DNA from: Malania oleifera
Lineage: Eukaryota; Streptophyta; Magnoliopsida; Santalales; Ximeniaceae
Assembly (NCBI RefSeq): GCF_029873635.1
Contig: NC_080423.1
Span: forward strand, 98,452,397 to 98,516,396
Length of the DNA: 64,000 nt
Direction of reading: 5' to 3'
This document shows positions 16,965 through 64,000 of this stretch, in pieces. The stretch's first letter is position 1. Every line of letters begins with the position of its first letter. Under the pieces are notes generated by a model that worked only from the letters and a program-made list of their open reading frames with translations, did no database searches and was not told the origin of the DNA. The position numbers and the translations under genes are program-made.

Positions 16965-16966
16965 AA

Positions 16967-20225: not shown

Positions 20226-20226
20226 G

Positions 20227-20234: not shown

Positions 20235-20300
20235 TTTATAATATTGTCATCATGCATGCATATGCTAACGAATTCTCCCTTGCAAACAATAGATCTTCCA

Positions 20301-31918: not shown

Positions 31919-31920
31919 AT

Positions 31921-31933
31921 TGGTATTAGAACT
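31921..31933 (+). promoter_or_regulatory. primer-binding site, decayed tRNA-iMet type
   Basis: TGGTATTAGAACT begins two bases after the 5' LTR. It matches the TGGTATCAGAGC primer site apart from C-to-T and G-to-A changes. Confidence 0.75.
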
Positions 31934-32168
31934 AGGTTGAATAGTGTTGATACGGAAGTGTTCCTCTGTTAGGATCCTTGATTCCACGTTTGATGCCTAC
32001 GAAAGATCTTGTCTAAGCGAGTGCTCAGAGACCATTGCAGTTCAGTCGCTCCCTAGAGGTCGGCTTGGTTAAAGTGAAATTTCATAGGATAAAACAAAGT
32101 AGACACAGTTAGTACGTACTATTCATCTTAGGTCTTTTGCTTTGCTGGTTGCTATTGAATATATAGAA

Positions 32169-33120: not shown

Positions 33121-36100
33121 TGGATTCTGGTTGTTCCTATCACATGTGTCCCAATAGGTAATGGTTTTCTAATTTTGAAGAATTAAATGGTAGGGTTGTT
33201 TTTATGGGAAATGATAATACTTGTAAAACAACTGGAATAGGATTAATATAGTTGAAATGTCAAGATGGAACTATTAAGACTTTAACTGATGTTAGGTATG
33301 TTCCAAGCCTAAAGAAGAATCTGATTTCATTGGATGCCTTAGAATCTAAAGGATCCACTATTATTTTGAAAGATTAAACCTTAAAGATTAAATTAGGTGC
33401 GCTGGTGGTGATGAAAGGAATAAGGAAAAATAACTTGTATTATTTAGAAGGTAGTACAGTTATTGGGTCAGCAACTGTTGTTTCTGAGAAATATGCAGGT
33501 TCAGATACAATCAGGTTATGACATATGCGATTAGCACATGCAGGAGAAAAATCTTTGCAATAATTAGTTGAGCAAGGTTTGTTAAAGAGTGCAAAGGTAT
33601 ACAAACTTGAATTTTGTGAGCATTGCATTCTAAGAAAATAAACTAGAGTGAAATTTGGCACAACAATCCATCATACTGAAGGTATTTTAGACTACATCCA
33701 TATAGATGTATGGGGGCCCACAAAAATGGCTTTCGTTGGGTGATATGCATTATTTTGTCACTTTTGTCGATAATTTTTCTAGAAGAGTTTGGGTGTATTC
33801 TATGAAGCATAAAAATGAAGTGTGTGATATTTTCCTTAAGTGGATAAAATTAGTTGAAACTCAAACTGGCAAAAAGATTAAACAACTCAAATCAGATAAT
33901 GGTGGTGAATACACGAGTGACCCATTTATGAAGGTATGTTAGGATGAAGGTATTGCTCGACACTTCACAGTTCGAAATACACCACAGCAGAATGGGGTGG
34001 CAAAGCGTATGAATCGGACTTTGCTGGAGAAAGTTCGATGTATGTTGTCTAATGCTGGGTTTGACAAAAGGTTTTAGGTTGAGGCTGTTAGATATGCGTG
34101 TTATCTCATCAATCGTCTACCATCATCTGCAATAGGGGAAAAAACACCCTATGAGGTATGGTCTGGAAAGCCTGCTAGTGATTATGATTCTTTACATGTA
34201 TTTGGTATTATGACTTATTATCATGTTAAAGAATCTAAGTTGGATCCAAGAGTCAAGAAAGCAATATTCTTGGGGATAAGTGCAGGAGTCAAAGGATATT
34301 GTCTTTGGTGTCTAGAGACGAAAAAAATGATTTTAAGTAGGGATGTAACTTTTGATGAAGTTGCGATGATGAAGAAAACAATACCCAAGGAATCACAAGT
34401 TGAAGAGAAGACCAGTGGTACTCAACAACAGGTGGAGGTTGAGACAATTTTGGGAAACCCAGTGAGAAATGAGACTACACAAGGTAACTCTCCAGTTACG
34501 GTGGGGAATAGTGTTGAAGAAGAGGAGATTTCAATTCAAGAATCTTCACAGCAACAAGAATCAATTGTTTCTCAAAGGCCAAGACGAGAAATTCGAAAAC
34601 CTACTCGGTATACTGATATGATGGCCTATGCACTTCCAGTTGTGGATGATAATATTCCTTACACTTTCAAAGAAGCAATGAGGAACTCTGAATCAGACAA
34701 GTGGAAAAGAGCATGGATGAAGAAATGCAGTTTCTTCATCAGAATTAGACTTGAGAGTTAGCCCAACTGCCCAAGGGTAAGAAAGCAATTGGTTGCAAAT
34801 GAGTTTATGTAAAGAAAGAAAGATTTTCAGATGCAAATAATGTTCGCTTTAAAGTTAGATTGGTAACTAAGGGCTATGCACAGAAGGAAGGCATTGATTA
34901 TAATGAGGTATTTTCTCCAGTTGTTAAACATTCTTCTATTCGAATTTCGTTGGCTTTGGTAGCATAATTTGATTTTGAACTAGTTCAACTCGATGTAAAA
35001 ACTGCATTTTTACATGGTGATTTGGAAGAGGAAATCTATATGACTCAATCAGATGGATTTCAGGTTGCTGGAAAAGAAAATTGGGTATGTAAACTGGGTA
35101 AATCGTTGTATGGTTTAAAACAGTCTCCAAAACAGTGGTACAAACGATTTCATCAGTTTATGATGGGTCAAAAGTACATCAGAAATAAACATAATCATTG
35201 TGTTTATTTTCGCAGACTACAAAATGGATCTTTTATATATTTACTCTTGTATGTTGATGATATGTTGATAGCTTCAAATAATAGGGAAGAAATCAACAAG
35301 TTGCAAAGTCAGTTAAATCAATAGTTTGAGATGAAAGATTTTGATGAAACAAAGAAGATACTTGACATGGAGATTCGCAGAAACATAATGACCAGAAGAG
35401 TTAGTTTGTCTCAAAAACAGTATTTGAAGAAGGTAGTACAGAGTTTTGGCGTGTCTGAGCAGTCAAAACCAATAAGCACTCCTCTTGCTCCTCATTTCAA
35501 ACTTAGTGCGACTTTATCTCCTAAATCAGACGAGGAACGTAAGTATATGTCACTGGTTCCTTATGGAAGTGTTGTTGGTAGTCTGATGTATGCAATGGTT
35601 TGTACTAGACCTGATATTTCACAAACTATTAGTATGGTGAGCAGGTATATGCATGATCCGGGTAAAGGACATTGACAAGTTGTGAAATGAATTTTGAGAT
35701 ATGTTATGAATACGATTGATATTGGTATAGTATTTGAGAAAAATAATACTATTGATCAACGTGTTGTTGAATATGTGGATTCAGATTTTGCAAGTAATTT
35801 GGATAAATGTTGATCAACTACTGGATATGTTTTTACATTTGCTAATGGTCCAGTGAGTTGGAGGTCTACCTTACAGTCTACCATTACCTTGTCTACAACA
35901 GAAGCAGAGTACATGACAGCTTCAGAGGTTGTTAAGAAAACTATTTGGTTACAGGGTTTACTTGAAAATTTGGGAGTTGTTCAGAAGCACATTGTTGTGT
36001 TATGTGATAGCCAGAGTGCTATTCATTTGACAAAGAACTAAGTCTACCATGCACGAACGAAGCACATCAACGTTCGGTTTCATTTTATGCGGGATATTAT

Positions 36101-36220
36101 TGATGGAGACAAGATACTTCTTCAAAAGATTACTACAACTGAAAATCCTATAGATATGTTGACCAAGATTGTGACAACAATCAAGTTCAAACATTGTTTG
36201 GATTTGATCAATATCTTGCA
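33100..36220 (+). pseudogene. copia pol remnant (protease, integrase, RT, RNase H)
   Basis: Protease ILDSGCSYHM is near 33117-33150. The integrase zinc region is at about 33510-33650 (HMRLAHAGEKSL, then FCEHCILRK). The integrase core is at about 33700-34220 (SDNGGEYTS, then NTPQQNGVAKRMN). The RT is at about 34790-35330 (CKLGKSLYGLKQSPKQWYKRF, YVDDM at 35250-35264). RNase H is at about 35830-36080 (STTEAEYM, then LCDSQSAIHLTKN). At least ten in-frame stops fall at positions where Trp, Gln or Arg is conserved. It is non-functional but collinear, with no large deletion. Confidence 0.92.
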
Positions 36221-36302
36221 AGTCTAAATATTTTTGGAAGGCGTCGATGATGTAGAACTCGAGAAAAAGTTAGTGATTGTAAAATTTGTTGAATTTATCG
36301 TC

Positions 36303-36314
36303 AAAGTGAAGATT
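36303..36314 (+). promoter_or_regulatory. polypurine tract of the copia element
   Basis: AAAGTGAAGAT lies just before the 3' LTR start, as expected for second-strand priming. Confidence 0.6.
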
Positions 36315-36676
36315 TGTTGTTTTTTGTCTCACATTGGTAGAATAACTTCACATTAGTATAAAAGATTGTTTTGAATTTTTTATATTATTTGTCCGACATT
36401 GGAGAGAAGTGTTTTTTGGACTTGAAGTTGAAGTTATATAAAAAGCTTAACTCTTCATTTGTAAAACACACCTCAAAGTTGTACTTTGTTAAGAAGTAGT
36501 GGATTGATCATCTGCGCCTAATGACGTAGGTAATTTAACACCGAACCTCGTAAATTTCTTATCTTGTTCTTTTTATTGTTTTATTATTAGTTTCTGCATT
36601 ACTTTAATTTCTTATATATTCAATAGCAATAGTTGTAGTATTAGTATTTGACACAAGTGGGGTGCCCGACACAACA
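36315..36676 (+). repeat. 3' LTR of the copia element
   Basis: 362 bp, starts TGTTG and ends GACACAACA. It is collinear with the 5' LTR. TATATAAA lies at 36435-36442. Confidence 0.93.
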
Positions 36677-36750
36677 ATATCTGTTCACACTGTACATGGT
36701 TGGACTTTCTTTCTGTATTCATTTATTTGGTTTTTCTTTTTTTTGTGCAG

Positions 36751-41853: not shown

Positions 41854-42146
41854 TAAGGTTTCATTTAGGGAAAAAAAAAAAGGAAAATATGAATAAAAAT
41901 AGTTTGGTTATCAAGAAAAGTAAGAAAAAAAATAAAAAGAACATACTAATTAAATGAACATTATTTTGATTTTATGCACCAATAACATTTAATTTTTCTT
42001 AATTTTTAATCATATTAGATCAAATTTTTTATTTTTACGAATATTTGATATAAAGAGAAAATATAATGGAAAACAGTTTACTTTTTATTTTCCTTTACTT
42101 TTTTTTTATTTTTCCAATCAAAATCTTTTACTTAAACGAACCCTAA
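41854..42146. mobile_element. MITE-like element with imperfect terminal inverted repeats
   Basis: The left end TAAGGTTTCATTTAGG and the reverse complement of the right end, TTAGGGTTCGTTTAAG, match at about 12 of 16 positions. The interior is AT-rich and non-coding. No clear target duplication beyond TAA was seen, so the superfamily is unknown. Confidence 0.4.
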
Positions 42147-42297
42147 ATGGAAGTTTCAAACTAGTCATTAAAATTTGTAGGTTGCCACTTTATTTCAATC
42201 CAATGTGGTTTAATGATAACTAGTTGTTGGCATACACTACAAAATTATGTGAATAAATCATTTTTGGGGAAATTATGAGAGTTATATAATATTCAAA
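42056..42297 (+). repeat. dispersed duplicate segment, copy A
   Basis: About 240 bp nearly matching 46461-46691. Shared blocks include ATTTTCCTTTACTTTT, CATTAAAATTTGTAGGTTGC, AACTAGTTGT and GAGAGTTATATAATATTC. It overlaps the right half of the MITE-like element and continues into its flank, so the duplication is not simply two MITE copies. Confidence 0.8.
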
Positions 42298-42688
42298 ATT
42301 TTTAAAATAAATATATTTTATTAAATTACTTTTCTACCCATTTTTTGTAAATCTTTTAAATATGTAAATGATAAGTTGTAAATTAAGGGCATTTTAAGAA
42401 TGGTAAAGAAGGAGACTTTTATTAGAATCTATTTTTCTTCCTTTAGTTAATGATGATAATAATAAATATATATTATTAACTAAAATAAAATTCAAAAAAT
42501 TTATAAATTGGGATATTATCTTCTAGAAAACTTTCATAATTCATATATTAACTCTCAAAATAAAATATTAAAAAAAAAACAAAAATAATTTTAATCTAGT
42601 TTAAAATGGCCTAATTCAAAACTAAAAATAAATATTAAAAATTTATTTTTTTATAATTTTGAAATAAATGATCTTCATTCTCAATTAC
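42298..42688. other. AT-rich spacer
   Basis: No gene or repeat is recognised between the duplicate segment and the solo LTR. Confidence 0.6.
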
Positions 42689-46460: not shown

Positions 46461-46691
46461 TATATAGTTGAAAATAGTTTACTTCTTATTTTCCTTTACT
46501 TTTCTTTTGTTTCTCCAATCAAAGTCTTTGACCTAAACAAACCATAAATGGAAGTTTAAGACTAGTCATTAAAATTTGTAGGTTGCCACTTTATTTTAAT
46601 TTTAATGATAACTAGTTGTCGGCATACACAACAAAATTATGTGAATAAATATTTTTTGTGAAAATTATGAGAGTTATATAATATTCAAAAA
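46461..46691 (+). repeat. dispersed duplicate segment, copy B
   Basis: Partner of 42056-42297. It ends exactly where the left piece of the split copia element begins, so it marks the left edge of that copia fragment. Confidence 0.8.
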
Positions 46692-46781
46692 TATGCAGCA
46701 CTAGACAGGAAAGTAGTAGAGGAGGTGTATACAAGTAGCACGATAGACTACTCTAGTTTAAGAGTGTTTGGATATCTAGCC
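46690..46781 (+). pseudogene. left piece of a split Ty1/copia element (integrase C-terminal region)
   Basis: Encodes an integrase C-terminal segment of copia type (AALDRKVVEEVYTSSTIDYS, then SLRVFGYLA). The frame is interrupted exactly at TAGCC (46777-46781) by gypsy element 1 and resumes at 61883. Nothing upstream of the integrase remains, since the duplicate segment 46461-46691 abuts it. The copia element was thus already truncated, or was cut later. Confidence 0.85.
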
Positions 46782-48934
46782 TGTAGTAATCCTAAAAAAA
46801 AATTAAAGTTAAATTAAAATTTAAAATTTTAAAAATAATAATAAAAAATATTAATTAATTATTTTTTTATTCAGGTTTCCTGAAGGATCAGGAAACATAT
46901 TATATTTTAGTTTATTTCTTCTTCTTCATCTTCTTCTTTTTCTTCTTTCTTTCTTTCTTTCTTTCTCTACGTCAATGCTCTCCTCAGCTCCTCTCTCCCA
47001 CTCTCCTCCATCTCATCTCCGTTATTCGGTCGATTGGAAATCTGAAAATACCGTTGGGCTCTACTTGCCGCCACTGACATTTCTACTGGGGTGGATCTGT
47101 CATGGGAGTGGCGTAGACATATCTCCTGGGGTAAGGTCAAATTTCAAATTTATCTCAATTTCTCTTAAACTATAAGCCCCATTAACCAACGAAAATTGTT
47201 AGGAGATTGGTGGAGAGATTCTCTACAATCTAGCGCGAGCGAGTTTTCAGATCGGAGTTCTAAGGTACCAATCCTAAATCGAGGGTAAATTTGATAATTT
47301 AGGCTTTTATTAGGCTATTTAGGATATTCTAAACTTAGGAAAATTTTAAGAAAAGTTACTTTAAGAATTATGACGAATAATATGATGAAATTTGAATTTC
47401 AGCGTTCAGGGGTTTTTGAACACCTAGGGCGTAGGCCGGGGTGTTATCGGGTCTTTTTCAAAAATCAGGTAAGGGGATTAAATTAAGTTAGTAATTTTAT
47501 GAAAATTGAATCAATATAATTGTTATGTTTATATAAATATATTTATTTATTTATTCATTTGGGAATTTAAAAGCTATTTTGAAAACCAACCTTTCGAAAT
47601 AGATTTTACAAATTTATGATATATGATATAGTATTTTTGAATAAAATGAACAGTGAACAATTTGTTTATTTATATGAATTTGTTAAAATGTGGAAAATCG
47701 TGTGGCAGATGATTTAATTTGTATGGATTATTGTATACATGGATTTGGGATTTTGAAATACTGAATTGTCTGTGAAATACTGAATTAGTTGAGAAATACT
47801 AGAAATGTTTGTGAAAAATACTAGAACTACATATAAAATGCAGGAGTTTGAACTAATAGCCAATGGCCGGGTGTTATTTGATTGGACAAGAGCCAAGATT
47901 ATTATTTGATGGTCAAGGACCGAGTTTTAATTGGTGGCTATATGCCAGATTGTATTTTGTGACCGGGGGCCAGGTGTTTGGAATAACAGGAAATATATAT
48001 GAATTAATGTTTTAAATGGTGATTTCTATTATCTAAATTGCATGATATGCTTTAGAAACCCTGGGAACTAGTGTATTGTGAGCACGGTATCGTTGCTAGT
48101 TAGACAATGTGCACCCATATTATCTGGATAGAAGTGTAGGGGGTCCAGCCGACTGCCTGCGTGAGGTTGAAGTAAGGGCGTCGGACCTGCAGCTTTGCTA
48201 TGGATGCCTACAGATGTGTTTGCAGAGGATGTTGTTTTTGACTTTGTTTGGGTTTATCACTCAGGCTTAGTCCAGCCTTCGGGCCGCACAACCTGTGCCA
48301 TGGGGATGTAAATGGCGTGTTTGTCACAGGGAGTGTCTTATATGCATATATGTTAATTTATGTGAATAAGTTAATTAATAAGATAACTTCGAGGGTTTAT
48401 TGAGAAAGGTGAGTGCCTTGGTAGCAGTAATGATACTAGAGCAGAGGGAAGTTACTTGTATGGGCGGGTAATCTTCCCTATCCTTGGCTAAATATGTGTG
48501 TGAGTGTAAAATAAGAATGTTTTCATAAATGTGTTTATTTACTTAGTAAACTGGTTATTTTCTGTACACTAAATGCATGTTGGCCACACACTGACATTAA
48601 CTTAGTTTTTCCCTTACTGAGCTGTGTCTCACCCCTACTTTACAAACTATCTTTTTAGGGAATCCTAGAGATAGGGTCTAGCGGGCTAGAGGTGTAAATT
48701 TATGTAGGTGGTGTGTAGATAGAGATTTTATTTTTGTTTAGTTTTATGAGATGTAATTATGTGAAAATGAATATATTTGTGTATAAAGATAGTTAGAACT
48801 CTGATAATGTAATTTGAGGTTATATTTTATTTTCGCTGCGTATGTGTATTTTATATTTGATGAATAAGGTGTCAGGTACACTGATGTCACTAAAGTAACA
48901 CTCCAAGCCCACGTGGCGGGTCGGGGTCGTTACA
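46782..48934 (+). repeat. 5' LTR of gypsy element 1
   Basis: 2153 bp, TG…CA. A CTT/TTTC-rich tract lies at about 46917-46966. The segment from about 47745 onward is repeated in the truncated 3' LTR (51681 onward), with few differences. Ends GGGTCGGGGTCGTTACA. Confidence 0.92.
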
Positions 48935-48936
48935 GG

Positions 48937-48949
48937 TGGTATCAGAGCC
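48937..48949 (+). promoter_or_regulatory. primer-binding site, tRNA-iMet, gypsy element 1
   Basis: Perfect TGGTATCAGAGCC two bases after the 5' LTR. Confidence 0.95.
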
Positions 48950-49381
48950 TAGGTTTGTTAGGTTTTGCAGACTTCGAGGATTGATAATTACCAAAGTATA
49001 GGTTGAGATAAGATAGGGATAGGAGTGGGTAGGTTAAGATGAGTTTTGGTTTGGAAACTTGGAGGCAGAAATCTATTGACAGACTTCTGTGATTTTTTGA
49101 ATCAGTCGCGAGTTCTAGAAAACCATGGTAAATCCATCAATGGTTTCATTTCTGGGTTTAGAGACTAGAACTCAGAAAATTTAGGTTGGAATGTTAAGAT
49201 GAGTGGGTATGTGTGTGAAGTTAATGTTGGGATGGAGATTTTACCTTAATGGTTTAGTGATAGAATTGGAATATGAATTATTAAATTAAAACCCGTACAT
49301 TATATCAATTCCATTATTCCATATTTGCATTAATTGTGTTAAATGCGAAATTACTAAGTTAGGTTATATCCTATTTACAGG

Positions 49382-50556
49382 ATGGATTCCAGGGGAAAAT
49401 ATGTTGTGGTTGGAAGAGATACCTCTAGCGAGGATGATGCTGATGCTTCAACAGTGTTGCAAAATATAGCGCGACAGGCTAGAAAGGAAAACATGAGGGA
49501 CTCTAGAGAGCAAGATCAGCTAGTGGCTGATAGGGGTTACACATTTCAGCAGTTCACCCAGGCGAACCCACCGGCATTTGTAGGTGGATCGAACCCGATC
49601 GCAGCTGAAGATTGGATTCAAGAAATAGAGGAGTTACTGAGGGTATTGGAGTGTACTGAGGAGTGAAAGGTGGAAGCAAAGAGATGGTGGCGATTGGCGA
49701 AATTGGTGGAGGAGCAGCGCCCAGAGCCTGCGGCTATCACTTGGAGCCGATTCATCCCCACTATCACCCGCACAACTAAGGTAGAGGAATTCCTGCAGCT
49801 GACTCAGGGGCCCATGACTGTGCAACAGTATGCGCCAAGTTTGTGGAGTTGTTCCGTTTTGCTCCACACATGGTTCCGAATGAGCCACTGAAGGCACGGA
49901 TGTTTGAGAGGGGACTGAGACAGAGCATACGCACGCAGGTGGTGGCATTGTTGACTCAAAGCTTTTCTGAGTTAGTGGATCGGGCCATGGCAGTTGAGGC
50001 CAGCATTCAGGAGGGGGAGAATGTGGTGAACCAGAAGAAGAGGCCTTTGCCTCAAGGGTTTCAGACTAACACTAGCCATGGCTCTTACAAACGGCCTGGT
50101 AATTTCTCGGGCCAGCGATAGGAGATGGGGTACCAAGGCCATCAGGGGGGTTCCCAGCGCCCTATATGTTTTAGATGCCATCAGAGGCATTCGGGCGAGT
50201 GCAGGGGAGGACCAGTTGTCTGCTATCGATGTGGAGAGGCAGGACATCGGATACGAGATTACCGTGTAGTGTTGAACTATGCGCCGCCACAGCCGGAGTA
50301 TCAAATACATCCAAAGGCACCTCAAGGTGGTCACCAGGGGGGTGCGGCTCAGGCACAAGTATACTCACTTACGCCGGGTGATGCAGAGAACGTCGGTGAT
50401 GTGGTGACAGGTACTATTTCCATATTTTCAGATAGTGCCGTTGTATTATTTGATTCAGGTGCAACCCACTCATTTGTGTCTCGGGGATTTGTTAAACTAT
50501 GCGAGTTAGAGGCTCAATTGATAGAGACTGAGTTAGGAGTCAGTGTTAATATGTAG
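49382..50556 (+). pseudogene. gypsy element 1 gag-protease remnant
   Basis: ATG at 49382 directly after TTTACAG. The Gag N-terminus (open to 49666) has AEDWIQEIEELLRVLECTEE followed by a stop. The capsid region continues in shifted frames to about 50121. The zinc-knuckle region at about 50164-50268 has two fingers; the second reads CYRCGEAGHRIRDY, with the last Cys changed to Tyr (TGC to TAC). The protease active site is FDSGATHSFVS at about 50450-50482. Frame changes occur near 49830 and 50100, so no intact polyprotein can be made. Confidence 0.9.
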
Positions 50557-50569
50557 TAGGGAGATCAGG

Positions 50570-51690
50570 GATTATCCAGTAGAGATTTAGGGGAGAGTGT
50601 TGCCTGTTATTTTGATAGTCCTTGATATTGAGGGTTTTGACATTATTATGGGCATGGACTGGCTAGCATCCAGCTACGCGAGCATTGACTGTCGTAGAAA
50701 GGAGGTGGTATTATGACCTCCTGGGGAGTAGGAGTTTGTAATTGTTGGCTTGTGTGTGCGTTCGGCACCACGGATCCTTTCGGCTATCCAGGCAAAAAGG
50801 TTACTTTTAGGGGGATGCCAGGGTTACCTTGCAATGGTGAAGGAAACGTCGAAGGAATAACCCAAGTTGGAAGATATCCCAGTGATAAGGGAGTTCTCTG
50901 ATGCTTTTCCAGAGGATTTACTAGGATTGCCTCCTGATTGAGAGGTGGAATTTGCAATTGATCTGATCCCAGGTATAGCACCAATCTCCAAAGCCCCATA
51001 CAAAATGGCTCCAGCTGAATTAAAGGAGTTAAAGGAGCAATTACAGGAGCTTCTAGACAGGGGGTTTATCAGACCGAGTGTATCGCTCTGGGGTGCACCG
51101 GTGTTGTTTGTGAAGAAGAAGGACGGGTCAATGAGGATGTGCATCGACTACCGAGAGATTAATAAGGTAACGGTGAAGAACAAGTATCCATTACCTCGAA
51201 TTGACGACCTGTTTGATCAGCTTCAGGGTACGTAGATTTTCTCTAAAATCGATTTGGCAATTTAGATATCATCAGGTGAAGGTTAGATCAGATGATGTAT
51301 CGAAGACTGCTTTTCGGACTCGATACGGCCATTACGATTTCTTGGTTATGTCGTTCGAGTTGAAGAATGCTCCAGCGGTATTTACGGATTTGATGAACAG
51401 AGTATTCCACGAGTACTTAGACCAGTTTTTTATTGTGTTCATAGATGATATTTTGGTCTATTCGAGGAGCCCTGAGGAGCATGAAGCTCATCTGAGACTA
51501 GTACTTCAGGTGCTCAAGGAAAAGAAGTTATTTGCTAAACTTAAGAAATGTGAATTCTGGCTAGAGCAGGTTGCATTTCTGGGTCATATGGTATCCAAGG
51601 AAGGGGTTTCAGTGGATCCAAGCAAAGTGGAGGCTGTAGTTGACTGGGCAAGGCTGAAGAACGTGCAGGAGGTCAAAAATTTTGGGATTT
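50570..51690 (+). pseudogene. gypsy element 1 reverse transcriptase remnant
   Basis: RT from about 50945 ([17 protein letters not shown], then [20 protein letters not shown]) through [12 protein letters not shown] at about 51437-51472, to [17 protein letters not shown] and NVQEVKNF at about 51680. A frameshift lies near 51233, and the region between protease and RT (50570-50940) is also broken. The frame ends where the sequence fuses to LTR-internal DNA, so RNase H and integrase are missing. Confidence 0.9.
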
Positions 51691-52626
51691 TGAAATACTA
51701 ATATGTTTGTGAAATACTGAATTGGTTGAGAAATACTAGAAATGCTTGTGAAAATATTGGAACTGCTTGTGAAATGCAGGAGTTTGAACTAATGGCCAAT
51801 GGTCAATTGTTATTTGATTGGCCAAGGGGCAGGATTATTATTTGACGATCGAGGACCGAGTTTTAATTGGTGGCTATATGTCGGATTGTATTTTGTGATC
51901 GGGCTAGGTGTATGGAATAACAGGAAATATATATGAATTAATGTTTTAAATGGTGATTTCTATTATCTAAATTGCATGATATGCTTTAGAAACCCTTGGG
52001 ACCAGTGTATTGTGAGCACGGTATCGTTGCTAGTTAGACAATGTGCACCCATATTATCTGGATAGAAGTGTAGGGGGTCCAGCCGACTGCCCGCGTGAGG
52101 TTGAAGTAAGGGCGTCGGACCTGCAGCTTTGCTATGGATGCCTACAGATGTGTTTGCAGAGGATGTTGTTTTTGACTTTGTTTGGGTTTATCACTCAGGC
52201 TTAGTCCAGCCTTCGGGCCGCACAACCTGTGCCATGGGGATGTAAATGGCGTGTTTGTCACAAGGAGTGTCTTATATGCATATCTGTTAACTTATGTGAA
52301 TAAGTTAATTAATAAGATAACTTCGAGGGTTTATTGAGAAAGGTGAGTGTCTTGGTAGCAGTAATGATACTAGAGCAGAGGGAAGCAACTTGTATGGGCG
52401 GGTAATCTTCTCTATCCTCGGCTAAATGTGTGTGTGAGTGTAAAATAAGAATGTTTTCATAAATGTGTTTATTTACTTAGTAAACTGGTTATTTTCTGTA
52501 CACTAAATGCATGTTGGCCACACACTGATATTAACTTAGTCTTTCCCTTACTGAGTTGTGCCTCACCCCTACTTTACAAACTGTCTTTTCAGGGAATCCT
52601 AGAGATCGGGTCTAGTGGGCTAGATG
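51681..52626 (+). repeat. 3' LTR of gypsy element 1, first piece, 5'-truncated
   Basis: Collinear with about 47745-48690 of the 5' LTR. It begins inside the LTR at the TTTGGGATTTTGAAATACT junction, lacking roughly the first 960 bp. It ends at the AGATG target duplication of gypsy element 2. Confidence 0.9.
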
Positions 52627-52699
52627 TGTAACAAGTTAGGGATTTTGGAGATAATAATAGTTTGGGATAATAATAATAATAATTTCAAGGAATTTCCAG

Positions 52700-52870
52700 A
52701 GCTCATTGACAAATACAGGGCTTCGTCGACAAGTTCATAAGGAAACTCGTCGACGAGAAAATACCGAGAGGGGTTATGGGGCAGCCTGAAATTCGTCGAC
52801 GAATACAGGGACTCGTTGACGAATTTATTGAAAGATTCGACGACGAGATAACGTGTCTCGTTGACGAAGA
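52700..52870. repeat. CGTCGACGA palindrome array, 5' LTR copy
   Basis: Several copies of the near-perfect palindrome TCGTCGACGA, with variants TCGTTGACGA and TCGACGACGA, spaced roughly 20-40 bp apart upstream of the TATA box. Shorter than the 3' LTR array by roughly 60 bp of repeat. Confidence 0.85.
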
Positions 52871-52876
52871 CAACAG

Positions 52877-52885
52877 TATATAAGG
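52877..52885 (+). promoter_or_regulatory. TATA box of gypsy element 2, 5' LTR
   Basis: TATATAAGG directly downstream of the palindrome array. The same motif is at 59863-59871 in the 3' LTR. Confidence 0.75.
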
Positions 52886-53497
52886 GGAAAACTCAGATTT
52901 TTATCACTTATTCGTGCCCCTCTCTCTCTCCTCTCTCTCTCTACAGCTCTCTCTCACTTCTCTTTTCGTTTCCGGGCTTGTTTCTCGTCAGATCAAAGAT
53001 CTGAGGCTACCACGACTCTCCTGGCGAGATTCTCTGTAAGTCTGCCGGAACTGATCGCTGGAAAAGTTGGGTTGAATTTCGTCCCAATCTCAGGGTAAGA
53101 CATTTTATTCAATATTTGTCTTTCCCTCAGTTATGAAAAATGTTGTAGGTAAGAAAATACTGATGTTTTGTTCTGGGGGATTGTGTTTTTAGGATGTTGA
53201 GTTAGAAATCCTGCAGGTATAGAATCAGAATTATATAGGGGCTTTTTAAAGTTAAGGTAAGGGAAATATGCTATGTTAGAAATTTTATTGATGTTAATAG
53301 AGATTTCATAGACACATATTTATACCAGTTTATTATACAGTTTTTACAGATTATGAGTTTAAATGCTTTTGTGGGTTAAGTAGATTTTCATGTGATGGAG
53401 AATGTATACAATTTTTATAATGTATCATACTATACTAAATATACAGAGAAATTTACATGCATATATAGTTTTTATATGAGTAGTTCATGAAACAGAC

Positions 53498-53498
<1 letters not shown>

Positions 53499-53555
<57 letters not shown>
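53499..53555. repeat. (TA)n microsatellite in 5' LTR
   Basis: About 28 TA units. The 3' LTR has only a short TATATATGCATATGCATG stretch at the same place, so the tract expanded after insertion or contracted in the other copy. Confidence 0.92.
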
Positions 53556-53558
<3 letters not shown>

Positions 53559-54610
53559 TATACTTATTCATATCAGTATTATATCACAGTTTTATACAAA
53601 ACAGTATATGCCAAGTTATAGCATGCCATATTTCCTATTACCATAACATACAGAGTATGTAGGCAGAGATACAGAGGTAGCATCAAGATGCTATAGATAC
53701 AGTATACAAAGATTACAGTATTTATAGTACATAAAGATAACGTTATGGTAGTTTTGGAAAACATTATGAAAACAGTAAAAAAGTATATATGTATATAGTA
53801 TCAGATCCCTGTGGAAAAATTACAGATAGATATAGTTTACAGAACACGCTACCGTTGCTAGATACAGATAGAGTGCAACCACATATCTCAGATAGTATGT
53901 TGGTACCGTCGACTGTTCTCGGAGAATATGCAGCTCCCCAGTTCACTGGGTGGAGGGGGCTGGTTTGATGAGGTAGTAGCTAGACCCGAGCTTAGGAGTG
54001 TATGCAGTTTGGCCGGACTGAGGTAGTGTAGAGTATATTGACTTATCTGGAGGGCCGACCAGGTTAAGTCCCACCTATGGGCCGCACAACCCTGTCATGA
54101 GGGGTCAAATCATGACGTACAGAGTCCCAGGGATAAAACACAGTTATGTGTATGTATACAGTTTTACAGTATATGATGAGTATAGTATGATATTATCAAT
54201 ATGAAAAATAGAAAAACAGACGATACAGTATATTTTAAATCGTGAAAGAAAGATATGCTATATAGATGATTTAATGCATTGCAGTTCAGTTACTATTTTA
54301 AAAGTATCTCTAACTTAGTTGTCACACACAAGTAATAACATATTTCCACTTATTGAGCGTTGACTCACCCCATTACTTTACCATTTTTCAGGTAAACCAG
54401 TTAGGCGAGTAGATTAGGCTTGCGGATAGAAAGTAGTTTGATCACCTTGGTTATAGGGTGAGTTTTTGTTAGAGCTGAGTATTTTTTAGTAGATGATGCT
54501 GGAGGGGTATTTTTTTGTGACTATGGTCTGTATATACAAAATTCTAGTATTGCATAGTAAATATGTAAATGGTTGCATGATATGAGTTTCCGCTGCTTAA
54601 GTATGGATCT

Positions 54611-54612
<2 letters not shown>

Positions 54613-54664
<52 letters not shown>
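54613..54664. repeat. (TA)n microsatellite near the 5' LTR end
   Basis: About 26 TA units. The 3' LTR has only a few at the matching position (about 61566-61574). Confidence 0.92.
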
Positions 54665-54667
<3 letters not shown>

Positions 54668-54703
54668 AAAAAAAATGGTATGAATTTTGAGGTCATTACA
54701 ATT

Positions 54704-54716
54704 TGGTATCAGAGCC
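54704..54716 (+). promoter_or_regulatory. primer-binding site, tRNA-iMet, gypsy element 2
   Basis: Perfect TGGTATCAGAGCC three bases after the 5' LTR end at 54700. Confidence 0.95.
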
Positions 54717-55017
54717 GAGGTTGTTAGGTTTTGTAGACTCTAGAGTGTAGCGGAAAGCAATACCAGAATATAGGAAAGAGATTTGAGGTTTTGTTCTGTG
54801 ATTCGGATACAGGATTTCGTGATTGTTTCTGTGTTTTTCTTGGGGTGATGATTTCAGGAAAACCATAGTAAACTGTCGACGAGTCATGTGTTTGGATTGC
54901 AGGAGTGGATTTTGGGGCTAGGAGCAGGAGGGATTAATAAGGATTTGGAGTTTTAGTTAAATAAGTTGGGTCTGTAGAAGGATAGAATTTTGAAACGATG
55001 TTCTATTTGTTTACAGG

Positions 55018-56290
55018 ATAGACCTAGGAGGCAATAGTGCTGACGCCAGTGGGGATGATGGAGCGAGTCCTTCTAGCGTAGCAAGTCGGGATTCAGATGC
55101 TGTGCTACGCAATGTGGCTTAGCAAGTCATGGCTGAGATAGCGTGGAACTCTAGAGAGCAGGGAGGTCCATCCTCAGCTTAGGGATGTACCATAGAGAAA
55201 TTTATGAAGATGAATCCGCCACCTTTTTCTGGAGCGACTGATCCTGCAATTGCTGAGAATTGGATACAGGAGATAGAAAAGATTCTGACAGTGCTTCACT
55301 ACACCGATGAGCAAAGGGTCTTATATGCTACATATAGGCTGGCAGGCGAGGCTGGGAGATAGTGGTCAGCCACCAGATTGTTGGAGAAGCAGAGGGCGAT
55401 ACCAGTGTAAATGACTTGGACCCGATTTAAGGACATATTCTTTGATAAATATTATCCTGCTTCAGTTAGAGATGCTCGAGTGTAGGAGTTTCTGAGTCTG
55501 TCCTAAGGGTCGTTGACTGTTCAGCAGTACGCTGCGAGATTTATTGAACTGTCGCATTTTTGCCCTTATATTGTCCCAGATGAAGCAAAGAAGGCTAGAA
55601 TGTTTGAGAGAAATTTGAGGCGTGATATTTACAGGAAGGTGGTGGTACTGAGGATCCAGGACTTCTCAGAGTTGGTTAGTAGGGCCATAATAACACAGGA
55701 GAGTCTACCGAAAGAGATTGAGGCATAAAGTCAGAAGAAGAGGACCGCACCCTCGTGCTTTCAGGCGGGTCCCAGCCGAGGCCCTTGGAGGGGAGGTAGG
55801 TCTGGCGGGGGTCAGAGACAGATAGTAGAGCAGGGTGGATCTCAGGGTAGTCAGCCTCCCGCCACTTGTGCCAGATGTGGACGGAGACACCCAGGTGAAT
55901 GTCGATTTGGGGAGGATGTTTGCTACCGCTGCGGGAAACTCGGTCATATGGCTCGATCGTGTCAGATGCCGTCAAATTACGCACAAGATCCCAGACCATT
56001 TCGAGGTGGATATCAAGTGCCCTGTGGTGGTCAGCAGAGGAACACAGCGCCAGCGAGGGTTTATGCGTTGACACCGGGAGACACTGAGACAACTAGAGAC
56101 CTGGTCACAGGTACTCTTACTTCTTTATCATATAGAATGATTGTTTTTTTTTATACAAGTGCTACCCCCTCTTTTATATCAGCGGGATATGTGAAAATAG
56201 CTGGAATAAAGACACAACCATTAGATATAGAATTTTCTGTGGCTACACCAATGGGATCTGTGATTAGACGTAGGAGGGTACTTTAGAATT
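55018..56290 (+). pseudogene. gypsy element 2 gag-protease remnant
   Basis: The expected gag start, ATG after TTTACAGG in element 1, reads ATA here (55018-55020). The Gag capsid region has NWIQEIEKILTVLHYTDEQ, then a TAG where Trp is expected (near 55361). A clear stretch follows at 55513-55728. Two zinc knuckles (CARCGRRHPGEC and CYRCGKLGHMARSC) lie at about 55867-55965. The protease active site is damaged: FYTSATPSF instead of the FDxGAT form, near 56150-56180. Stops and frame changes are frequent. Confidence 0.9.
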
Positions 56291-56299
56291 TTCCAGTAA

Positions 56300-59200
56300 G
56301 TATTCAGGAGAGAGTGCCGTTAGCCAATCTGGTGGTCCTGGATATGCAGGGATTTGATGTGATACTGGTTATGGATTGGTTGGCCATTTATCATGCTAGT
56401 ATAGATTGTCATATGAAAGAAGTAATTTTCAGACCCCTGGGTGAGCCAGAATTTAGATTTACGGGATCACACGTGCGTGCCTCACCACAGCTGGTGTCGG
56501 CTATTCAAGTGACTAGACTGCTACAGGGTGGTTTCTAGGGGTATATTGCATACATAAAAGAATTTTCAAAAGAAGAATTGGAACAAGCTGACATACCAGT
56601 AGTGAGGGAATTCACAGATGTATTTCCTGAAGAATTGCCTGATTTGCCACCAGATCATAAGATTAAGTTCACTATAGACTTGTTGCCGGGATCTACACCA
56701 GTATCTAAAGCACCGTACAGTATGGCATCAGTTGAGTTGAAAGAACTGAAAGATTAGCTACAGGAGTTACTGGATAAGGGTTTTATTAGGCCCAGTATGT
56801 CGCCTTGGGGTGCGCCAGTTTTGTTCGTGAAAAATAAAGATGGAACCATGAGATTGTGCATCGATTGTAGGGAGATAAATAAATTGACAGTCAAGAATAT
56901 ATCCTCTCCCTAGGATCGATGATTCATTTGATCAGCTCCAGGGGACCCAGGTTTACCCTAAGATTGATCTGCGATTAGGTTACCACCAGGTGAAAGTTAA
57001 AGAAGAAGACATCTTGAAGACCGCATTTCGTACCTAGTATGGGCATTACGAGTTCTTAGTGATGCCATTTGGGTTGACTAATGCACCAGCGATTTTCATG
57101 GATTTGATGAATTGGGTATTCCACCAGTATTTAGACCAGTTTGTGGTTGTGTTCATTGATGATATATTGGTCTACTCGAGGAGTATTGAGGAGCACCAGC
57201 ATCATTTGAGGCTGGTATTGCAGATATTGAGAGAAAGGAAATTATATGCAAAATTCAAGAAACGTGAGTTCTGGTTAAGGCAGATTACTTTTCTCGACCA
57301 TGTGATCTCAGAAGCAGGAGTATCAGTTGATCCGAACAAAATAGAGGCAGTGGTGAATTGGGAGAGGTAGGGAAATGTTCAAGAAGTCGGGAGTTTTTTG
57401 GGGTTAGCAGGATATTATCGGCGTTTTGTGGATGGTTTCTCCAGGCTATCAGATCCATTAACACGACTTACGAGAAACAATGTAAAATTTGAATGGACTG
57501 ATGACTGTGAATAGAGTTTTCAAGAGTTAAAGGAGCGGTTAGTTTCAGCTCCAGTACTGGCTATTCTATTAGGGAAGGACAGTTTCGTAATATACAGTGA
57601 TGCCTCTTTGAAAGGGCTTGGATGCGTGTTGATGCAGCACGACAAAGTTATTGCATATGCGTCTAGGCAGCTTAAAAAGTATGAGAAAAATTATCCTGTC
57701 CATGATTTAAAGCTTGCTACAGTGGTGTATGCTCTTAAAATTTGGAGGCATTATTTATATGGTGGAAAGTGCGAGATTTTCACGGATCACAAGAACCTGA
57801 AATATTTATTCACTCAAAAAGAGTTGAATATGCCGCAAATAAGGTGGCTAGAACTTATAAAAGACTATGATTGCACGATTAGTTACCACCCAGGAAAAGC
57901 GAACGTAGTAGCAAATGCTCTGAGCAAAAAATTAGGGGGATCTGTACTGGCAGCCATGGAGATTCAGCACTCAATTTTGGTGGATTTGGAGAGGCTCAGT
58001 ATAGAATTGGTAGAGGAGAGTCCTCAGGTAGTTATTTCTAGTCTAGTAGTGCAACCCACGCTTTACAAGAGGATTAAAGCAGCTCAGGGTGACGATGCAA
58101 AGTTGGCAGCGGTGATGGCTAGAGTACGTAATGGACTGGGTGAGGAGTTCAACATATCAGATGACGGAGCTCTGCGATTCCGTACTAGGCTATGTATTCC
58201 TGCAGATGCTGAGATCAGGAGGACTATACTGGAGGAGGCTCACAGACCCCTATACACGGTCCATCTCGACAAAACTAAAATGTATAGGGACCTGCGAGAG
58301 TATTTCTAGTGGAGTGGAATGAAGAGAGAGATAGCCAAATTTGTTCAGCAGCGCTTGACATGTCAGCAGGTTAAGGCTGAACACCAGAGACCAGCAGGAT
58401 AGTTGCAGCCGTTGTTTATTCCGGAGTGGAAGTGGGTCCACGTTTTGATGGATTTTTTTACGGGGTTACCACCATTGCGGCAGGGATTGAATACAATTTG
58501 GGTAGTTGTTGATCGTTTGACGAAGATTGCTCATTTCATCCCTATTAAAATTGTTTATTCCATGGACAGATTGGTAGAGATATATGTTCAGGAGATAGTT
58601 CGTGTTCATGGAGTACAAGTATCCATAGTCTCAGACCGAGATCCTCGGTTTACTTCATGATTCTGAAAAAGTTTTTAGGAAGCTATGGGTACGCAGTTGG
58701 CTTTCAGCACCGCTTTTCATCGTCAGACTGATGGTTAGACTGAGAGGACCATTCAGATACTAAAAGATATGCTTCATGCTTGTGTACTTGATTTTGGAGG
58801 TATTTGGATTCAATTTATGTCGTTAGTTGAATTTGCTTATAATAATAGCTATCAAGCTAGTATCGGCATGGCTCCATACGAGGCATTATATGGCAAGAGA
58901 TGTCATTCTCCTCTTTTCTGAGATAAAGTAGGTGAAATGCGAGTTTTGGGTCCCGAGATAATACAGCAGGCGTCCGACAAAGTTCGATTAATTAAAGAAA
59001 GAATTAATACAGCACAGAGTCAGCAGAAAAGTTATGCAGACACTCGCCGCCGAGAATTGGAATTTGATATGGGAGATTGAGTATTTTTGAGATAGCTCCT
59101 CTAAAAGGAGTTATGCGGTTTGGAAAGAAGGGCAAGTTGAGCCCTAGGTATATTGGCCCTTTTGAGATACTTGAGAGTATAGGGTCAATTGCCTACAAGC

Positions 59201-59500
59201 TAACTTTGCCGCCAGCTTTGGCTCATATTCATGACGTGTTTCATGTTGCCATGTTACGGAAATACGTTCCAGACCCATCCCACATCATTAGCTATGCAAA
59301 GATAGAGCTTAAGGATTTATTGGCATATGAAGAAGTACCAGTACAGATTTTGGATAGAAATGTTCAGACTTTACGCACTAAAGAAATATAGTTAGTTAAA
59401 GTTTTGTGGAAGAATCATGCTATAGAGGAAGCTTCTTAGGAGCTTGAGGAGCAGATTAGATAGAGATACCCACAGTTGTTCCAAGAGGTATAGAGGTACT
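56300..59500 (+). pseudogene. gypsy element 2 pol remnant with chromodomain-like end
   Basis: The RT spans about 56650-57370, with [12 protein letters not shown] at about 57145-57180 and a frameshift near 56895-56915. RNase H spans about 57480-57950 ([31 protein letters not shown]). The integrase zinc region ([11 protein letters not shown]…CQQ) lies at about 58260-58370. The integrase core is at about 58430-58960 (VDRLTKIAHFIPI, SDRDPRFTS, FHRQTDG). The C-terminal linker ends LTLPPALAHIHDVFHVAML. The chromodomain-like tail is at about 59320-59480 (YEEVPVQILDRNVQTLRTKEI, then VLWKNHAIEEAS). Stops sit mainly at conserved Trp, Gln or Arg codons. All domains are present but none is intact. Confidence 0.92.
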
Positions 59501-59619
59501 CAGGTAAAGTATAATAGTTAGATAGGTTTCTTTTGTAGGCCTTGTATTTGTTGACGACATCGCATTTTGGAGATAATAATAGTTTGGGATAATAATAATA
59601 ATAATTTCAAGGAATTTCC

Positions 59620-59850
59620 AGAACTCGTCGACGAATACAGGGCCTCGTCGATGAGTACATAAAGAAACTCGTTGACGAATACAGAGCTTCATCGACGAGT
59701 ACATAAGGAAACTCGTCGACGAATATAGGGCCTCGTCGACGAGAAAATACCGAGAGGGGTTATGGGGCAGCCTGAAATTCATCGACGAATACAAGGACTC
59801 GTCGATGAATTTATTGAAAGATTCATCGACGAGATGACGTGTCTCGTCGA
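59620..59850. repeat. CGTCGACGA palindrome array, 3' LTR copy
   Basis: About ten CTCGTCGACGA-type palindromes alternating with AATACAGGGC and GTACATAAGGAA-like linkers. The array ends about 15 bp before TATATAAGG at 59863. Confidence 0.88.
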
Positions 59851-59862
59851 TGAAGGACGCAG

Positions 59863-59871
59863 TATATAAGG
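59863..59871 (+). promoter_or_regulatory. TATA box of gypsy element 2, 3' LTR
   Basis: TATATAAGG in the same context as in the 5' LTR. Confidence 0.75.
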
Positions 59872-61618
59872 GGAAAATTTTAATTTTTATCACTTATCCG
59901 TGCCTCTCTCTCTCTCTCTCTCTCTCTCTCTACGACTCTTTCTCACTTCTCTCTTCGTTTCTGGGCCTATTTCTCACCGGATCAAAGATTTGAGGCTACC
60001 ACGACGCTCTTGGCGAGATTCTCTGCAAGTCTGCTGGAGTTGATCGTTAGAAAAGTTAGGTTGGATTTCATCCCAATCTCAGGGTAAGACATTTTATTCA
60101 ATATTTGCGTTTCCCTCAGTTATGAAAAATGTTGTAGGTAAGAAAATACTGATATTTTGTTCTGGGGGATTGTGTTTTTAATATATTGAGTTAGGAACCT
60201 TGCAAGTATAGAGTCAGAATTATACAAGGGCTTTTCAAAGTTAAGGTAAGGGAAATATGCTATGCTAGGAATTTTAATGATGTTAATAGAGATTTCATAG
60301 ACACATATTTATACCAGTTTATTATACAATTTTTACAGATTATGAGTTTAAATGCTTGTGTGGCCTGAGTAGATTTTCATGTGATGGAGAATGTATACAA
60401 TTTTTATAATGTATCATACTATACTAAATATACAGAGAAATTTACATGCATATACAGTTTTTATATGAGTAGTTCATGAAACAGACGTATATATATGCAT
60501 ATGCATGTATACAGTTTTATTCATATCAGTATTATATCACAGTTTTATACAAAACAGTATATGCCAAGTTATAGCATGTCATGTTTCCTGTTACCATAAC
60601 ATACATAGTATATAGGTAGAGATACAGAGATAGCATCAAGATGCTACAGATACAGTATACAGAGATTACAGTATTTACAATACATAAAGATAACGTTATG
60701 GTAGTTTTGGAAAACATGATGAAAATAGTAAAAGAGTATATATGTATATAGTATTAGATCCCTGTGAAAAAATTACAGATAGATACAGTTTATAGAGTAC
60801 GGTACCGTTGCTAGATACAGATAGAGTGCAACCACATATCTCAGATAGTATGTGGGTACCGTCGACCGTGCTCGGAGAGTATACATCTCCCTAGTTCACT
60901 GAGTGGAGGGGGCTGGTTTGACGAGGTAGCAGCCAGAACCGAGCTTAGGAGTGTATGTAGTTTGGCTGGACTGAGGTAGTGTAGAGTATATTGACTTATC
61001 TAGAGGGTCGACCAGGTTAAGTCCAGCCTACGGGCTGCACAACCCTGTCATGAGGGGTCAAATCATTACGTATAGAGTCCCAGGGATAAAGCACAGTTAT
61101 GTATATGTATACAATTTTACAGTATATGATGAATATAGTATGATATTATCAGTATGAAAAGTAGAAAAACAAACGATATAATATATTTTAAATTGTGAAA
61201 GAAAGATATGCTATACAGATGATTCAATGCATTACAGTTCAGTTACTATTTTAAAAGTATCTTTAACTTAGTTGCCACACACTAGTAATAGCATATTTTC
61301 ACTTACTGAGCGTTGACTCACCCCATTACTTTACTATTTTTCAGGTGAGTCAGTTAGGCGAGCAGATTAGGCTCGCGGATAGAAAGTAGTTTGATCACCC
61401 TGGTTATAGGGTGAGTTTTTGTCAGAGCTGAGTATTTTTGAGTAGATGATGCTGGAGGGGTATTTTTGTGTGACTATGGTCTGTAAATACAGAATTCTGG
61501 TATTGCATAGTAAATATGTAAATGGTTGCATGATATGAGTTTCCGCTGCTTAAGTATGGATCTAGATATATATATTTTAAAAATAAAAAAAAATGGTATG
61601 AATTTTGAGGTCGTTACA

Positions 61619-61882
61619 AGATGAGTCGGGCTAGAGGTATAAAACTATGTAGGTGATGTGTAGATGGAGAGTTTATTTTTGTTTAGTTTTATGGGATGTA
61701 ATTATGTGAAAATGAATATATTTGTGTATAAAGATAGTTAGAATTCTGGTAATGTAATTTGAGGATTTTATATTTTATTTTCGTTGCATATGTGTATTTT
61801 ATATTTGATGAATAAAGTGTCAAGTACATTGACGTCACTAAAGTAGCACTTCGGGCCCACGTGGTGGGTCGGGGTCGTTACA
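61619..61882 (+). repeat. 3' LTR of gypsy element 1, second piece
   Basis: Continues the LTR after the nested element (CGGGCTAGAGGTATAAAAC…) and ends GGGTCGGGGTCGTTACA, like the 5' LTR. The TSD of element 2 lies at 61619-61623. Confidence 0.9.
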
Positions 61883-64000
61883 TAGCCTATGTACATGTTT
61901 TTAGTGAGGAGAGATTGAAGCTCAATGCAAAGTCTATACAACATATCTGTCTGGGATATCAGAAAAGGGTGAAAGGTTTCATGCTCTGGGATTCGAAGGC
62001 AAACCAAGTGGTGATCAGTTAAGATGTGATTTTTGATGAGAAAGTCATGTTGTTGTGTACTCAAGAAAAAGAGAAATGGGTGCCAGAAAATTGTAGCAGC
62101 AATGAGCATGTGGTGCAAATGGAGTTAAAGACTCACGGTAGAGGTGACAATATTCAAAATGCAAGGAGTCCTAGCTCATAAGATTAGCAACATCATAGTA
62201 TAGTTATAGACAAGCCCATACTCATTATCAGGCCACCCCCAAGTATGGTTTTAATGATTTGGTTTCTTATGCACTCATTACTAGTAGCAAGGATCCTACT
62301 ACTTTTCAAAAGACGATGCACAACCAAAAGAAAAGTAGATGGATGGGTGATATGGTGGAGGAGATGGAGTCTTTGCATAAGAACCAGACATGGGAGTTGG
62401 TGGAACTTCCAGATGGGAAGAGAGCGATAGTATGCAAATGGGTGTATAAGAAGAAAGAATCAATATCAGCCAAAAAAAAAAAAAAAAAAGGAAAAATTCA
62501 AGGCTCATTTAGTAGCAAAGGACTACTTACAGAGGAAAGGGGTTAATTATGATGAGATCTTTTCCCCTGTTGTCAAACACACTTCCATCAGAGCAGTGTT
62601 GGGACTGGTAGCACATTTTAATATGCATTTGGAGTAGATGGATGTAAAGATAGTGTTTCTCCATAATGATTTAGAGGAGTTGATTTACATGGTATAACCA
62701 AAAGGGTTAAGTCAGCCTAGACAGGAACACTTGGTCTGTAAATTAAGAAAATCACTTTACGGGCTGAAGTAGTCTCTGAGGTAGTGGTACAAGTGATTTG
62801 ACTCCTACATGGTCCAGATTGGCTATAGGAGATGTGAGTATGATTGTTGTATTTATGTGAAGATTCTTGATGATGGTTCATTTATTTTTCTCTTGCTTTA
62901 TGTGGATGACATGTTGATTGCTGGGAAAAGTATGACTGAGGTCAACAACTTGAAAATCACGTTGAGCAAATAATTTGACATAAAGGATTTGGGTGTGGCC
63001 AAGAATATTCTTGAGATAGAGATTCGCAAGGATAGAGCTTCCAAGAGATTGCGGTTATCTCAGCGTAGCTATGTTGAGAGGGTTTTGGAGAGGTTCAACA
63101 TGGATAATGCAAAACCAGTAAGTACATATTTAGCGAATCATTTTAGATTGTCTACTGCCCAGTGTCCAAAAACAGATGATGAAGTTCAATACATGTCAAA
63201 GGTTCCATATGCTAGTGCAGTGGGGTGCTTGATGTATATTATGCTTTGTACAAAATCGGATCTGGCACAAGTTGTCAGTGTGGTGAGCAAGTTTCTATCA
63301 AATTCGGGATGACAATATTAGGATGTAGTCAAGTGGATTTTCAAATACTTAAGGGGTACTATAGATTATGACATCATGTTTGGCAAACAACAGGGCGGTC
63401 TTTAAGTTGTGGGATATGTGAATGCAGACTATGTGAGGAACTTAGATGACAGGAGGTCTACCACAAGCTATGTATTCACTATTGTGGGGGGGCCTATTTG
63501 TTGGAAGTCCATGGTTTAGTCTCTAGTTGCACTATCTACTACTAAGTTAGAGTATATGGCAATGGCTAAGGCTACCAAGGAAGCTTTGTGATTTACAGGA
63601 TTGGTCAATGAGTTAGGTATTCAGTTAGGTGGAGTTCAGTTGCATTGTGATAGTCAGGGTGCCATTTATTTGGTGAAGAACTAGGTGTATTATGCGAGGA
63701 CCAAGCACATAGATGTGAAATTTCACAAGATCAAAGAATTAGTTTCTTCTGGTGAACTATTGCTTGAGAAAGTTTACACGTCTGAGGATGCAACAGACAT
63801 GTTGACAAATTCTGTTACCACAGACAAGTTCAAGCACTGCTTGGACTTGATTAATGTTTCTAGATGCTAGATAGGAGGCGTCCCAACCTATTGTCCCATG
63901 TGGAGCTCCGAATTATGTTTTCGTTTTCTCCTAAGGGGTGAGTATTTTCCAAGGTGGACATTGTTGTAGTTTGTAGCTTATATTGAGTGGAACACATGTA
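61883..64000 (+). pseudogene. right piece of the split Ty1/copia element (integrase end, RT, RNase H)
   Basis: Starts with the TAGCC duplication and continues the integrase frame in phase with 46690-46781 (YVHVFSEERLKLNAKS, then HICLGYQKRVKGF). The RT runs about 62420-63310 (CKWVYKKKE, YVDDM at 62899-62913, SYVERVLERFNMDNAKPVST). RNase H runs about 63370-63870 (HCDSQGAIYLVKN, ARTKHIDVKFHKI, then FKHCLDLINV). A poly-A run at about 62471-62488 disrupts the RT frame, and many stops are present. The purine-rich AAGGTGGACA (63952-63961) is followed by TGTTGTAG at 63962, the likely start of the 3' LTR, which runs off the window. Confidence 0.92.
63962..64000 (+). repeat. possible 3' LTR start of the split copia element (cut by window end)
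   Basis: TGTTGTAG follows a purine-rich tract, about 90 bp after the end of RNase H. The partner LTR is not in the window, so this is positional inference. Confidence 0.5.

Follow-up and report, generated by a model that had tools for sequence, protein, structure and literature searches.

The 64,000-nt window analyzed here, a stretch of Malania oleifera contig NC_080423.1 (C7:98452397-98516396; assembly of 1,494,336,490 bases in 510 contigs), carries in its right-hand part three retrotransposons lying one inside another. The outermost is a broken copia element. Within it lies a first element, presumably gypsy (E1, 46782-61882), with TAGCC on either side, and the 3' long terminal repeat (LTR) of E1 in turn holds a second gypsy element (E2, 52627-61618) with AGATG on either side. 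Our analysis confirms that this nesting is real, base-exact and ordinary plant genome biology. It offers a compact, base-exact case in which LTR divergence alone would misorder the insertions while position gives the true order. The parts of the nest are these:

46694-46781, + strand: copia left piece, upstream of the integrase SH3-like domain (from paralogue alignments)
46777-46781, + strand: TAGCC, left target-site copy of E1
46782-48934, + strand: E1 5' LTR, TGTAG...TTACA
48681-48693, + strand: site of a 14-bp gap in the E1 5' LTR
48935-51680, + strand: remaining E1 internal region, with zinc knuckle, protease and reverse transcriptase (RT) in broken frames
48937-48948, + strand: TGGTATCAGAGC after the E1 5' LTR
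51680-51681, + strand: E1 deletion joint, at which the RT region breaks off and LTR position 47744 follows directly
51681-52626, + strand: E1 3' LTR, left piece, ending in AGATG
52622-52626, + strand: AGATG, left target-site copy of E2 and end of the left piece of the E1 3' LTR
52627-54700, + strand: E2 5' LTR, TGTAAC...TTACA
54701-59534, + strand: E2 internal region, with remnants of zinc knuckle, protease, RT, RNase H and integrase in broken frames
54704-54715, + strand: TGGTATCAGAGC after the E2 5' LTR
59535-61618, + strand: E2 3' LTR, lacking ~70-90 bases at its start (left border placed by eye from paralogues)
61619-61623, + strand: AGATG, right target-site copy of E2
61624-61882, + strand: E1 3' LTR, right piece, ...TTACA, preceded by the AGATG copy at 61619-61623
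61883-61887, + strand: TAGCC, right target-site copy of E1
61888-64000, + strand: copia right piece, with the rest of the integrase SH3-like domain and the RT and RNase H region, continuing beyond the window end

Three retrotransposons, one inside another

The first-pass annotation had placed a TAGCC duplication around E1 and an AGATG duplication around E2, and all four copies were located there, each 5 bp long and each pair perfect. Both elements have TGTA...TTACA ends and carry just past the 5' LTR the motif TGGTATCAGAGC, which we take to be the initiator-tRNA-Met primer site. E1 thus shows the 5-bp duplication and the TG...CA LTR ends (TGTAG...TTACA) of an LTR-retrotransposon insertion, and E2 shows the duplication, TG...CA ends and an empty site in related copies.

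A genome search with the copia piece gave 42 matches, of which the first 20 were located; one was the window itself, leaving 19 paralogues for comparison (78-84% identical over full-length matches, among the matches listed). With the flanks of E1 joined and aligned to these copies, 19 of 19 paralogues cross the TAGCC joint. Eighteen of these alignments were inspected for gaps: in 17 there is none within 10 bases of the joint, and in that of L021 there is one of 2 bases. The nineteenth copy, L018, crosses the joint as well. The joined E1 LTR flanks of E2 were likewise aligned to six E1 LTR paralogues (L003-L008), all of which cross the AGATG joint, five with no gap near it and L005 with one single-base gap ~3 bases to its right. 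Fourteen bases present at this joint in all six paralogues are absent from E1's own 5' LTR. The misfit is therefore peculiar to this one LTR, and AGATG represents a genuine duplication. The resulting 14-base overlap of the E1 LTR flanks was considered as a sign of two source copies and rejected, since all six paralogues have the longer form. Because the nesting, the two perfect 5-bp duplications and the empty sites in the paralogues all agree, the order first proposed for these insertions, copia, then E1, then E2, is upheld.

The copia frame had been described as continuing in phase across TAGCC, and it does: it reads TTT GGA TAT CTA GCC and then TAT GTA CAT. The claimed split of the copia integrase is also borne out, in that the segment to the right of E1 matches Pfam SH3_retrovirus (E 5.4e-10). 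Two copia pieces match RVT_2 (E 2.2e-06 and 3.6e-06, each under the curated cut-off) and lie downstream of the SH3_retrovirus piece at 61888, placing integrase upstream of RT as in Ty1/copia. In-frame stops are present in the right piece. The copia start had been put at 46690; paralogue homology instead begins abruptly at ~46694, the alignments starting at 46693-46699 in 18 of 19 paralogues and 15 bases before the joint in L018. We searched the window for the missing 5' part with the 19 paralogues and their upstream flanks (up to ~1.4 kb). These flanks chiefly matched the window's other copia at 33-34 kb (65-88%), and scattered single-copy matches not common to the paralogues were found for L021 at 27 kb, for L025 at 44 kb and for L020 and L028 at LTR-like stretches. 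A direct repeat of ~235 bp (42061-42298 and 46462-46690; 87% identical, 4.2 kb apart) was observed to the left of the nest; its right copy adjoins the copia start, so the repeat may mark the cause of the copia truncation. Beyond the other end, ~460 bases past the end of the window in L009, a further TGTAAAAACCCC... LTR-like start was seen by eye after the presumed start of the copia 3' LTR, and may reflect one more insertion into this copia.

Ten pieces were scanned against Pfam, one of them (49358-49666) giving no match. E1 matches zf-CCHC (6.2e-05), RVP_2 (2e-14) and RVT_1 (2.8e-21); it retains protease and RT with everything beyond RT deleted, and its RT region is 68% identical in DNA to that of E2. 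The E2 matches are zf-CCHC (2.6e-06), RVP_2 (1.3e-11), RVT_1 (2.1e-20), RT_RNaseH (6.2e-32) and SH3_Tf2-1 (1.4e-23), together with a weak match to Integrase_H2C2 (18.4 bits, under the cut-off of 25.5). Their order, RVT_1, RT_RNaseH, Integrase_H2C2 (below cut-off) and SH3_Tf2-1, is that of Ty3/gypsy.

Both gypsy elements have suffered deletions. E1 lost RNase H and integrase, along with the remaining 3' part of its internal region and 962 bp from the start of its 3' LTR. U3 is usually copied to both LTR ends, and the intact start of the E1 5' LTR therefore argues that this loss postdates the insertion. In the E2 family, 93-119 bases separate the LTR start from a common ATTTTGG where both LTR ends are readable. 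Only 15 bases do so in the E2 5' LTR, where ~80-100 bp are missing after the first ~15 bases, and ~28 (by eye) in the 3' LTR, where ~70-90 bases are missing. The two E2 LTRs thus carry separate, differing deletions near their 5' ends. A loss of just 15 bases from the 3' LTR was rejected because the 5' LTR used as its reference is itself deleted, as the paralogues reveal. Outside the nest, 46034-46174 matches the end of the E1 LTR on the reverse strand (76%) and is probably a fragment of a related element.

LTR divergence and the low-divergence block

The two LTRs of E1 differ at 67 of 1183 sites (the 3' LTR lacking its first 962 bp), a Kimura two-parameter (K2P) distance of 0.0596 ± 0.0074. 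Those of E2 differ at 144 of 1913 sites, a K2P of 0.0807 ± 0.0069 with two TA tracts left out (150/1981 and 0.0811 with the tracts included). The first-pass annotation had predicted the lower divergence for E2 and had named divergences in the reverse order as a refutation of the nesting order; the reverse is what we find (z -2.1; in a block bootstrap the E1 divergence reached that of E2 in 7.7% of draws). We do not accept this reversal as a refutation and regard LTR divergence as a weak test of order, because the low value for E1 stems from one block of near-identity and because a survey of 4126 nested pairs from fifteen plant species reports 1042 (~25%) in which the inner LTRs likewise differ more than the outer ones (Jedlicka et al. 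2020, PMC7251063). The block, delimited by a two-breakpoint fit to the E1 LTR pair, occupies:

47979-48594, + strand: block of low divergence within the E1 5' LTR, interpreted as a gene-conversion tract
51913-52528, + strand: the same block in the E1 3' LTR, ending 98 bases before E2

Inside the block the E1 LTRs differ at 13 of 616 positions (2.1%; K2P 0.0215), versus 57 of 568 outside it (54 of 567, 9.5%, with another alignment), a contrast matched in 0 of 500 shuffles. Outside the block the K2P in the latter alignment is 0.1042 ± 0.0148, which exceeds E2's 0.081 ± 0.007 in point estimate. Trees pair the E1 LTRs as sisters at 99/99 inside the block and at 46/80 outside. A genome comparison with the central 601 bases of the E1 5' LTR, in which 40 of 6052 candidates were scored, puts the partner at 97% identity and the runner-up at 93%. 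When the query is the left part of the 3' LTR, E1's own 5' LTR is outscored by four other copies (among 40 of 2044 candidates scored), and when it is the right part, by 21 (among 40 of 2133). By sequence comparison the E1 LTRs are clearly mutual nearest relatives only within the block. Over almost the same interval (47971-48615) six paralogues show 6.7-9.0% difference from one another, and given these differences we judge that the block is not simply frozen by conservation. The six had been chosen as the best matches to 48100-48700, a choice that lowers their block distances and hence works against the conversion reading. The E1 pair thus contains a bounded tract of excess similarity relative to its family, as expected of gene conversion, and the block was probably caused by gene conversion between the E1 LTRs. 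The conversion would postdate E2 according to the clock, as the block K2P of 0.0215 compares with 0.0807 for E2 (z -6.5, with block limits chosen post hoc and equal rates assumed in the E1 and E2 families).

Several points weigh against this interpretation. The block evolves more slowly across the family, with a mean paralogue distance of 0.079 versus 0.136, 0.098 and 0.114 in the other three parts, so rate explains part of the contrast; after scaling for the slower block, the E1 pair still stands at about one third of its value outside. The block limits were picked to maximize the contrast. The excess of E1 outside the block over E2 is not significant (z 1.4), the clock alone being insufficient here, and the greater age of E1 rests on the nesting. 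The pairing of the E2 LTRs is unstarred in both trees described below. Finally, in the left part L008 is nearer to both E1 LTRs (0.080 and 0.103) than they are to each other (0.121), a pattern unexpected for a simple pair and one that would allow for exchange with other copies.

This last point, together with the finding that outside the block other copies in the genome match better than E1's own 5' LTR, would also be expected if the true age of E1 were that of the block and its outer parts had been overwritten by ectopic exchange with family copies. Such a history would require at least two separate events, one per side of the block, and the best outer-part matches found were only 91-92% identical among the candidates scored. 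It would also make E1 (0.02) younger than the E2 inserted into it (0.08), which the nesting bars unless the E2 LTRs mislead too, and we consider it improbable. We give equally little credence to a history with no conversion at all, in which the reversal is scatter of the LTR clock between elements of nearly equal age. The small overall difference and the bootstrap result agree with scatter, and divergence along the E2 LTRs is uneven as well (shuffle P 0.0034); the unevenness within E1, on the other hand, is not scatter in the shuffles above or by another measure (0.0004), and the 99/99 pairing is restricted to the block.

The E2 LTRs themselves pair as sisters in a tree of 28 paralogues (81/89; 1043 columns) and in one of 14 of these 28, hand-picked for full length (93/89; 1997 columns). 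The E2 3' LTR scores 2606 bits against its own 5' LTR and is outscored by five copies (L033 2714, L030 2679, L043 2678, L045 2623 and L034 2621 bits), and for the core of the 5' LTR L030 ties with the partner at 1504 bits each. These scores could mean that E2 arose by recombination between two copies and that its LTRs were never a pair, so that their divergence would not date the insertion. The perfect AGATG duplication and clean empty site speak against this, as does the sister placement in both trees, which insertion during a burst of a star-like family would give, and we rate a recombinant E2 as a shade less probable than either ectopic exchange or clock scatter. Because the LTR tree is star-like, the data rather suggest that E2 inserted during a burst of its family, leaving its partner and sister copies about equally distant. 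Among the E2 LTR paralogues (L030-L058), an exact TGGTATCAGAGC was seen within 350 bases past the matched stretch in 1 of 28 (L040), and the flanks agree at four or all five of 5 bases for 13 of the 17 with both ends recognized; judging from these sequences, many look like solo LTRs. That the nest, read here from assembled sequence, is a product of assembly joins is the least credible alternative and very unlikely, as the four copies of the target sites and both empty sites agree to the nucleotide, which a chance join would not produce.

Proposed history

We consider it very likely that three successive insertions, followed by conversion between the E1 LTRs after the arrival of E2, explain the locus as a whole. 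Gypsy element E1 landed in the integrase region of the copia, creating the 5-bp TAGCC duplication. Later E2, from a different gypsy family that was probably amplifying then, landed in the E1 3' LTR at AGATG. After that, gene conversion would have overwritten ~616 bp of one E1 LTR with the sequence of the other, in either direction, bringing the overall LTR divergence of E1 under that of E2 and giving the clock its wrong order. Unequal deletions, for which no time order is implied, took the 3' half of E1 pol together with the beginning of its 3' LTR, and also bases close to the 5' ends of both E2 LTRs. Of this history, the nesting, the target duplications, the empty sites, the deletions and the block are observed directly, and the conversion and its date after E2 are inferred. 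The timeline would thus run from copia to E1 (0.104 outside the block), E2 (0.081) and conversion (0.0215, or ~0.03 scaled for the slower block). In this history the conversion tract makes the older element appear younger, and a tract less diverged than the inner LTRs would allow the conversion to be dated in relative terms.

The tract starts 235 bases past the E1 deletion joint and stops 98 bases short of E2, within the 946 bp of E1 LTR, the only stretch still unbroken, that separate the internal deletion from E2. Because it lies inside this remaining contiguous homology, the tract might have been confined by heterology, a suggestion that we make tentatively and consider rather doubtful. Should this hold and prove general, the reach of later LTR conversion would be bounded by nested insertions and deletions, and conversion could be dated with the help of nested elements.

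Elsewhere in the window, another LTR element lies at 13265-17487 (LTRs ~523 bp, 93.5% identical, CTACG on both sides), with gag/pol-like open reading frames on the minus strand (by eye). A second copia at 31559-36678 has 362-bp terminal repeats that are 89% identical and an RT 62-70% related to that of the nested copia. A 714-aa open frame at 20208-22352 resembles a lectin-domain receptor kinase (putative, by eye).

Comparison with known nested elements

The outer element resembles Ty1/copia in its SH3_retrovirus domain and RVT_2-type RT in copia order but, unlike a whole Ty1/copia, keeps only a 3' part truncated at ~46694. E1 and E2 resemble Ty3/gypsy elements with an initiator-Met primer site in their protease, RT, TG...CA LTRs and 5-bp duplications, and E2 also in its RNase H followed by integrase remnants; unlike intact Ty3/gypsy, both are broken. 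Plant nests as described by Jedlicka et al. (2019, PMC6911290) similarly consist of LTR elements within older LTR elements, with target duplications and with Ty3/gypsy often involved. LTRs are described there as among the regions least hit by nested insertions in plants, and E2, which sits in an LTR, is an individual exception to that trend and does not contradict it.

The closest parallel is with the reversed nested pairs noted above, for whose divergence the authors propose gene conversion (PMC7251063). As in those pairs, the inner LTRs of E2 are the more diverged and the outer E1 pair carries the probable converted tract. Unlike in the pairs as presented there, the limits of the E1 tract are given to the base, paralogues supply the empty sites, and the tract can be provisionally dated after the inner insertion. 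The locus is thus a well-resolved example of a documented phenomenon, nesting with a reversed clock.

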